Below are positions 14,491-15,282 of a stretch of DNA of 16,366 bases, in pieces (the stretch's first letter is position 1; each line of letters begins with the position of its first letter). Made by a program: the position numbers and the translations under genes. Where the stretch lies: positions 1 through 16,366 of the forward strand of contig PWUC01000136.1 of NCBI GenBank assembly GCA_003562655.1. The letters run 5' to 3'. The notes under the pieces are model-generated. The model was not told the origin of the DNA and did not search any database. It saw nothing but the letters and a program-made list of their open reading frames with translations. The stretch is from Clostridia bacterium (GTDB lineage Bacteria > Bacillota_E > SLMV01 > PUMD01).

Positions 14491-15057
14491 TCACTCAGCC
14501 CCTTCCAGTCTTTGCATGATGACGACCTCTTCCACCGCGTCCACCTCATCCACCTTTACCTCCACCAGCTCGTGCCGGGAGGTGGGGACGTTCTTGCCCA
14601 CGTAGTCAGCCCGTATTGGCAGCTCCCGGTGGCCGCGGTCAACCAGGACCGCCAGCTGGATCGTTGAGGGGCGACCCAGGTCGATGAGGGCATCCATGGC
14701 AGCCCGCACCGTCCGCCCCGTGTACAGAACATCATCCACCAGGACCACGGTCTTTCCGGTGATGTCGAAGGGGACATCCGTTCGATGCACGGTGGGATGA
14801 TCATGACGCAGGGTCAGGTCATCCCGGTACAGTGTGATGTCCAGGGATCCGCCGGGAACGGACACTCCCTCGAACTCGGCAATGAACTTCCTGAGCCTGT
14901 CGGCCAGGGGCACTCCCCGCCGCCTGATCCCGATCAGCACGACATTGTCCACTCCCCTGTTCTTTTCCACAATCTCGTGAGAGATTCTCACCAGCGACCG
15001 GCTGATCTCCTCGGCGTCCATGATCCGCGCCTTGACCTCAAGGTTGTCCTCGCTCAT
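14491..15057 (-). CDS. pyrR: Bifunctional pyr operon regulator / uracil phosphoribosyltransferase
   Basis: PyrR is an RNA-binding regulator that, when loaded with UMP or UTP, grips a hairpin in pyr mRNA; it also makes UMP from uracil and PRPP. The 188-residue protein shows the PRPP loop [13 protein letters not shown] (104-116), the [10 protein letters not shown] segment (43-52) and the highly typical [18 protein letters not shown] (139-156). ATG 15057 is chosen because AAAGGGG lies 8 bases upstream; an upstream ATG at 15132 lacks such a site. The start shares ATGA with the stop of a short leader frame. A matching PyrR-binding hairpin lies at 15250-15282. It is the first structural gene of the seven-gene operon. 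Confidence 0.97.
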
Positions 15058-15236
15058 CGCATGAACCCCTTTCCCTTCGTGGCACTGTGAGCTGCCCAAA
15101 ACGCCCACCGAAAGCCCTCGCCCGATAGACATGCTGCCGCAAAGAAAAATGATATTTGATTGTTGAAAGGAAAAGCAGAGAGTGTGAGAGATAAAACCGG
15201 CGAGTTCGCTGCAGTCATCCCGACATCCTGTGGCAC
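15054..15236 (-). CDS. Putative pyr leader peptide, coupled to pyrR
   Basis: A 60-codon frame from GTG 15236 ends in TGA at 15054-15056, overlapping the pyrR ATG as ATGA. A perfect AAGGAGG site (15254-15248) lies 11 bases before the GTG; an in-frame ATG at 15218 is an alternative start. The peptide is not a recognised protein: it is hydrophobic, with a Phe-rich stretch (I-S-F-F-F-A-A-A) encoded by a U-rich run at about 15138-15170. The site, frame and overlap suggest that ribosomes loaded here deliver translation to pyrR. It could instead be chance. The wider open frame to 15476 runs back through the promoter and the dead transposase and is not a gene. Confidence 0.4.
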
Positions 15237-15249
15237 CAGCGCCGCCACC

Positions 15250-15282
15250 TCCTTATCGACCTCACTGGATCGACTTAAAGGA
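15250..15282 (-). promoter_or_regulatory. PyrR-binding hairpin masking a ribosome binding site
   Basis: Read as RNA, GAUCCAGUGAGGUC (15271-15258) fits the PyrR-loop consensus ARUCCNGNGAGGYU at every position except the first and last. Those two change together from A-U to G-C and keep the pair. The upper stem is UCGA/UCGA plus CC/GG around a five-base loop. The lower stem pairs UCCUU (15282-15278) with AAGGA (15254-15250), with an asymmetric 5' bulge of U-A-A as expected for this RNA. The AAGGA strand is the first part of the AAGGAGG ribosome binding site of the leader frame. PyrR plus UMP should therefore hide that site, as reported for Mycobacterium smegmatis pyrR. Confidence 0.82.

Follow-up and report, generated by a model that had tools for sequence, protein, structure and literature searches.

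A predicted PyrR hairpin masks the start of a leader frame reaching pyrR in a terminator-less pyr leader, with a possible role for Rho

In Mycobacterium smegmatis, PyrR hides the ribosome binding site of pyrR itself, and the pyrBI leader of Escherichia coli is of the type with UTP-sensitive pausing. The pyr attenuators of Bacillus subtilis, to our knowledge, need no leader frame. In the Thermus pyr attenuation model, said to have been put forward by van de Casteele et al. in 1997, PyrR reportedly acts through a translated leader, where the translating ribosome and not an antiterminator RNA decides read-through. The B. subtilis attenuators switch between an antiterminator and a terminator (excerpt of PMC4347634). 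In Mycobacterium tuberculosis, a B12 riboswitch controls the Shine-Dalgarno sequence of the uPPE2 leader frame, which has an AUGA overlap with ppe2, and ppe2 is translated mainly by termination-reinitiation (excerpt of PMC11260477). The Mbox-upstream frames-pe20 leader of the same species combines a translational switch with Rho-dependent termination, and its pyrimidine-rich region is discussed as an anti-Shine-Dalgarno or rut site (excerpt of PMC12810186).

The window, that is the whole stretch of 16,366 nucleotides of Clostridia bacterium DNA analysed here, carries a pyr operon with its leader (Table 1). A sequence-only reading of it had proposed that PyrR represses translation of a leader peptide and that this effect is relayed to pyrR and seven coupled genes; we counted six pyr genes after pyrR (pyrB, pyrC, pyrK, pyrD, pyrF, and pyrE). 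By sequence, the solved structure nearest to the PyrR of the window was 1ufr, a pyr mRNA-binding attenuation protein, which we take to be from Thermus thermophilus. Upstream of the operon, 16056-16364 (+) showed the beginning of an ISL3-family transposase-like frame, with a score below the family cut-off, and an NFACT/RqcH-like gene at 7429-9255 (+) is convergent to the operon.

Table 1. Positions of the promoter, leader, and gene features of the pyr operon in the window.
Feature	Position	Strand	Remark
Sigma-70 promoter TTGACA-17-TATAGT	15303..15331	-	11/12 matches
PyrR-binding hairpin (predicted)	15250..15282	-	lower stem UCCUU/AAGGA, upper stem UCGAU/GUCGA
AAGGAGG, Shine-Dalgarno of leader frame	15248..15254	-	first five bases within hairpin 3' arm
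Leader frame, GTG start, 60 codons	15054..15236	-	TGA overlaps pyrR ATG
C-rich, G-poor tract, candidate Rho-loading region	15141..15200	-	C 17, G 3 in 60 nt; putative function
AAAGGGG, Shine-Dalgarno-like site of pyrR	15066..15072	-	8 nt before pyrR ATG
pyrR, uracil phosphoribosyltransferase / pyr operon regulator	14491..15057	-	
pyrB (longest open frame)	13563..14549	-	
pyrC (longest open frame)	12263..13618	-	
pyrK-like (longest open frame)	11466..12398	-	DHODB_Fe-S_bind
pyrD (longest open frame)	10555..11574	-	
pyrF	9854..10558	-	
pyrE	9264..9857	-	TIGR01367 over cut-off

By direct reading of the minus strand, UCCUU (15282-15278) pairs with AAGGA (15254-15250), and the upper stem with its UCCAGUGAGG loop sits between these two arms. 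The conserved PyrR-binding loop UCCNGNGAGG was found on a covarying stem upstream of the pyr genes. The whole leader gave a weak match to the Rfam PyrR family (RF00515; 32.3 bits, E 0.38), which was rejected as proof of a PyrR site because its score is under the gathering value of 54. A covariance model, built from 18 relatives with the window and its nearest relative L110 left out, recovered the window hairpin with 51.2 bits and E 9e-13. In 26 aligned hairpins, double changes occupied 31 cells compared with 11.9 in shuffles (0 of 500 shuffles as high), and all five pairs of the upper stem showed a double change. The number of pairs with double changes was not significant (6 versus 4.7 in shuffles; 107 of 500 as high), and the folding energy alone was unremarkable (z −0.67). 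The earlier claim of a PyrR loop on a covarying stem, with UCCUU masking AAGGAGG, is borne out by the direct reading, the covariation, and the model match.

Transcription was predicted to start at about 15296, with the PyrR hairpin about 14 nt further on. The leader frame begins at the GTG at 15236, spaced 11 nt from its Shine-Dalgarno, and its TGA (15056-15054) forms an ATGA overlap with the pyrR ATG at 15057; the proposed 60-codon frame ending on the pyrR start was retained, with this GTG as its start. The masked AAGGAGG lies about 190 nt upstream of pyrR. An in-frame ATG at 15293-15291 (-) coincides with the predicted transcription start, and the same was seen by eye in L110 and not in L111-L114. 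Because of this position, leaderless translation from ATG 15293 through the PyrR hairpin is conceivable. The ATG at 15132 was a candidate start of pyrR because the database proteins P0002 and P0008 bear N-terminal extensions that are in frame; it was rejected, as the equivalent ATG in L110 is out of frame with pyrR.

A class-level search of 151 genomes gave 97 matches, and the loci used came from 30 of these and a further 60 (left out were G267, G843, G830, G900, G898, G928, and G881). The class members with named loci are metagenome-assembled genomes called Bacillota and Candidatus Fermentithermobacillaceae, which makes Bacillota the probable lineage of the window. An actinobacterial origin was rejected, as 2 of 396 sampled genomes gave a match at E 1e-70 or better, the best at 61%. 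In the order of G871, the nearest relative among the genomes searched, all eight genomes matched, with PyrR identities of 70-86%. Nine leaders were compared, from the window and these eight order genomes (L110, L111, L112, L113, L114, L115, L116, and L119). The promoter, the hairpin, the masked Shine-Dalgarno, and a leader frame of 52-79 codons were kept in all eight order genomes. Each of these relatives showed a −35 of the TTGAC type and, at a spacing from it, a −10-like hexamer matching at 3 to 5 of 6 positions, and the distance from promoter end to hairpin was about 20 nt in the nine leaders (range 18 to 27). In 9/9 leaders, the hairpin 3' arm held a Shine-Dalgarno that is followed by a start codon, L115 having the variant AAGGGGG. 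The start codon is ATG in six leaders and GTG in three (window, L110, and L115). For the window, L110-L116, and L119, in this order, frame lengths were 60, 65, 67, 52, 79, 52, 67, 66, and 66 codons, and the frames ended at +4, +4, +11, −26, +11, +11, +23, +4, and +4 nt relative to the first base of pyrR. The sequence-only reading expected relatives with the hairpin to keep both the frame and its overlap with pyrR. The frame was kept in all eight and ends just inside pyrR in seven, but the overlap is absent in L112, whose frame stops 26 nt short. A possible hairpin GUGRGC...GCUCAC, lying 30-50 nt before pyrR, is common to the window (~15110-15085, -) and L110, with −8.5 and −9.4 kcal/mol, respectively.

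By strict scan, no terminator-like site was found at 14900-15500 of the window. Three sister leaders (L115, L116, and L119) have an intrinsic terminator inside the leader frame, with −12.4 to −13.3 kcal/mol and seven T. Their T-run tail like TTTTTTGTGCC is common to other leaders as well (19 of 195 entries in all), which weakly suggests that the terminator is older. In the PyrR tree with outgroups, G863 fell outside the other five C-rich rows, and in the PyrB tree with outgroups, G863 and G848 grouped with the three terminator-bearing rows. These placements leave one or several losses, and the trees were therefore rejected as a means to date terminator loss.

A wider survey took in 194 loci picked by PyrR similarity and the window, 195 entries in all, of which 150 showed the hairpin pattern and 45 did not. 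Eight duplicates or near-copies were dropped (L120, L124, L126, L149, L150, L169, L173, and L184; L124 and L126 are from other genomes than L001 and have leaders near-identical to that of L001), leaving 142. An ATG 4-14 nt behind was observed in 34 of 63 entries with a strong 3'-arm Shine-Dalgarno versus 18 of 79 others (Fisher P 2e-4, without correction for relatedness). Between hairpin and pyrR, a terminator-like site was present in 54 of the 63, a count that includes loose flags in the window and L110 (52 without them), and in 71 of the 79. Leader starts hidden by PyrR and followed by a terminator recur in the class (L121, L125, L128, L164, and L017). L044 is Trueperaceae, so its phylum is Deinococcota, in which 77 of 81 sampled genomes had PyrR and 30 loci were read. 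In all 30, the hairpin bore a Shine-Dalgarno and a start codon came after it, and 27 had a terminator-like site in the leader. Relative to the called pyrR start, 25/30 frames ended at −5 to +40 nt, a count uncorrected for a few rows (e.g., L213 and L222) in which the automatic pyrR start appears wrong. In L044 and L223, the PyrR hairpin directly covers the Shine-Dalgarno of pyrR itself, which is the mycobacterial layout.

The best 60-nt C minus G values were 14 for the window and 14, 16, 13, 19, and 19 for L110, L111, L112, L113, and L114, respectively. With the window and L110 set by hand to 'no terminator' once the data had been seen, these six values (13-19) ranked 1 to 6 of 56 leaders at least 100 nt long, and the 45 terminator-bearing leaders reached at most 12. 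Five other terminator-less leaders showed a lower C excess (L117 12, L006 7, L158 6, L156 6, and L165 5). Within downstream genes of the same locus, the C excess of the window was reached by 0 of 1065 stretches, and those of L111, L112, L113, and L114 by none; that of L110 was not exceptional, as 89 of 374 stretches in its own downstream genes reached it. In the longer mixed-strand surroundings, the operon strand reached the value in 429 of 5276 stretches for the window, 389 of 4216 for L110, 170 of 4530 for L113, 88 of 1875 for L112, and none for L111 and L114, and on the opposite strand more stretches reached these values. As a sign of Rho sites, the C excess is weak. Among the relatives, rho was above the cut-off in all eight order genomes and also in G291; in G001, which belongs to the class, it was not detected.

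The explanation we favour, with a probability slightly better than even (about 0.52), is that PyrR halts leader translation and thereby leaves the leader open to Rho and breaks the coupling with pyrR. It joins what was observed above: the hairpin, the masked site, the recurrent open frame with its overlap, the missing terminator, the C-rich tract, and rho in the eight order relatives. With enough UMP, PyrR would bind the hairpin at the extreme 5' end of the pyr transcript and lock the leader Shine-Dalgarno. The leader would then stay untranslated, no ribosomes would come to the overlapping pyrR start by termination-reinitiation, and Rho may load on the bare C-rich, G-poor leader, so that transcription would end ahead of pyrR or soon after entering it. 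When UMP is scarce, the hairpin would open, and ribosomes translating the leader as far as the pyrR start would protect the RNA and pass on to pyrR. A termination step was preferred because the sister leaders carry a terminator within the frame, pyrR owns a Shine-Dalgarno-like site, and the C excess is found in leaders that lack the terminator. Premature termination of transcription probably contributes to the relay, given the terminators in the class, in Deinococcota, and in L115, L116, and L119, and the C-rich tract in the window's group. Counting against this explanation are the weak C marker, the unexceptional L110, the five terminator-less leaders with less C excess, the possible use of the C/U tract for sequestering a Shine-Dalgarno, and G001 with no Rho detected. 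The 11 nt spacing of the GTG in the window and the short frame of L112 also stand against it.

The model search of the eight order genomes returned 11 hairpins at E 0.1 or better, eight before pyrR and three before carA. A carA with its own PyrR hairpin was seen in G863, G871, and G878 (loci L203, L204, and L205). In the G863 carA leader, the C excess was 12, no terminator was present, and a GTG frame extends 103 nt inside carA. Terminators are present in the carA leaders of G871 and G878, with −15.3 and −19.5 kcal/mol and C excesses of 3 and 2, respectively. The masked frame of G871 has 9 codons and ends 65 nt before carA, and that of G878 has 29 codons and is the only one of the three to end at carA (+7). 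A C-rich G863 leader with no terminator, set against the terminated leaders of G871 and G878, also counts for the favoured explanation. We tentatively extend it, at somewhat less than an even chance, to the view that the PyrR-controlled frame serves as a removable Rho shield and that the lineage swapped its intrinsic terminator for Rho-dependent termination but retained the start site hidden by PyrR and the frame leading into pyrR, with a like swap before carA in at least one genome.

PyrR might instead repress leader translation with the effect reaching pyrR by termination-reinitiation alone, so that transcription is not cut early; this is the main rival and is judged less probable than the favoured explanation. 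It agrees with the ATGA or short overlap in 8/9 leaders, with the lack of an intrinsic terminator in the window by strict scan, and with the AUGA-coupled precedent behind a riboswitch (excerpt of PMC11260477). In the untranslated leader, the pyrR Shine-Dalgarno was predicted to be mostly paired (unpaired 0.03-0.35 in the window and L110-L114), and C/U-rich tracts were predicted to pair with it. However, in composition-matched shuffles of the six leaders, the fraction as low was 0.03, 0.03, 0.13, 0.15, 0.38, and 0.82, so that for most of them the pairing is no stronger than composition gives. Sequestration of the pyrR Shine-Dalgarno was rejected as the sole role of the C/U tract on this ground. 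The AAAGGGG of the window, moreover, was predicted to be paired both in the presence of the upstream leader and after its removal. Coupling alone would probably leak, because the pyrR genes of all nine leaders bear their own Shine-Dalgarno-like sites. The frame appears able to gate transcription in the order group, since L115, L116, and L119 retain terminators inside it. Of the translational relay first proposed, the PyrR hairpin masking the Shine-Dalgarno of a frame that reaches pyrR stands in 8/8 order genomes, and coupling alone is incomplete given the termination evidence.

It is improbable that the leader frame is incidental and that PyrR affects RNA stability or, from a distance, the translation of pyrR. 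A single open frame of this kind is not rare (0.42 of dinucleotide shuffles), and the peptide is not conserved: the homologue search gave one candidate and none at E 10 or better. The leader peptide was rejected as a conserved protein for this reason and for the frame-shifted segments between the window and L110. Nevertheless, all nine leaders are open to within 26 nt of pyrR, where 2.5 of 9 were expected from shuffle probabilities of 0.14 to 0.43 per leader. The joint probability of 5e-6 treats the leaders as independent, although the window and L110 are related, and the −30 nt cut-off for counting a frame as reaching pyrR was set post hoc to take in L112. It is the recurrence of the open frame in nine leaders, not the single frame, that exceeds chance. 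The masked Shine-Dalgarno spaced to a start codon, and a similar design in Deinococcota, also argue against an incidental frame. The leaders of the window and L110 differ by indels of 16, −2, and +1 nt (net 15), and part of them is read in different frames, yet both are open to the same ATGA. As judged from these alignments, openness is kept and the peptide is not kept across the leaders. Reading through to pyrR is favoured over a functional peptide, because the indels shift the frame and the ATGA is retained.

Still less probable is an ordinary PyrR site working through a terminator/antiterminator that the scans missed. Most surveyed entries do have a terminator-like site (the 54/63, loose flags included, and 71/79 given above), and a window hairpin near 15110 has −8.9 kcal/mol and is followed at a short distance by only four U. 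But the strict scan gave none, and under looser criteria single places were flagged in the window and in L110 and none in L111-L114. After refolding, the two flagged places were rejected, because their U run is part of the stem and the hairpin formed locally is weak (−3.1 and −4.8). The strict scan and this refolding agree with the earlier statement that the leader has no clear terminator.

Least probable of all is direct sensing of pyrimidines by UTP-sensitive pausing of the E. coli pyrBI type in the U-rich, Phe-rich leader, since UUUUUCUUU and FFF occur in the window and FFF also in L110, but the suggested pausing stretch is not conserved (FFF in these two only of the nine leader peptides, with none in L111-L116), the FFF-like GFFV of L119 is the T run of its terminator, and the window has no terminator.

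The hidden ribosome binding site of the window is like that of M. smegmatis, but the hairpin masks a leader-frame Shine-Dalgarno about 190 nt upstream and not that of pyrR itself. The B. subtilis attenuators have the same PyrR and binding loop as the window and differ in the type of switch, and the window showed no intrinsic terminator before pyrR. By the excerpts cited above, the B12 riboswitch-uPPE2-ppe2 leader is like the window in its gated, overlapping frame and differs in that its sensor is a riboswitch and not PyrR, and the Mbox-pe20 leader differs by its Mg riboswitch without PyrR. The window shares with the Thermus type a leader-frame Shine-Dalgarno in the hairpin 3' arm and a frame reaching the pyrR start, as do the Deinococcota loci (30 with the hairpin-borne Shine-Dalgarno and start codon, 25/30 with frames ending near pyrR). 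A Thermus-type terminator within the leader was absent from the window and L110-L114 after refolding; Deinococcota have a terminator-like site in 27/30 leaders, whereas the window's group has the C-rich tract and no terminator. The earlier statement that this two-step arrangement had not been described was too strong, given the Thermus model noted above and the excerpted B12 riboswitch-uPPE2 leader. The layout itself is not new; what differs is the absent terminator with a C-rich tract in its place. Among the matches listed in the open-access literature, a scope that leaves out most subscription papers, no paper described a PyrR-Rho leader. If the favoured explanation is true, one RNA-binding regulator would serve four outputs through minor changes downstream of a common hairpin: switching of an antiterminator in Bacillus, direct ribosome blocking in mycobacteria, leader-frame gating of an intrinsic terminator in Deinococcota and part of this Bacillota class, and terminator-less leader-frame gating, perhaps via Rho. 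The leaders would then give comparative support to the Thermus leader model and form a natural series with a constant sensor and an exchanged terminator.
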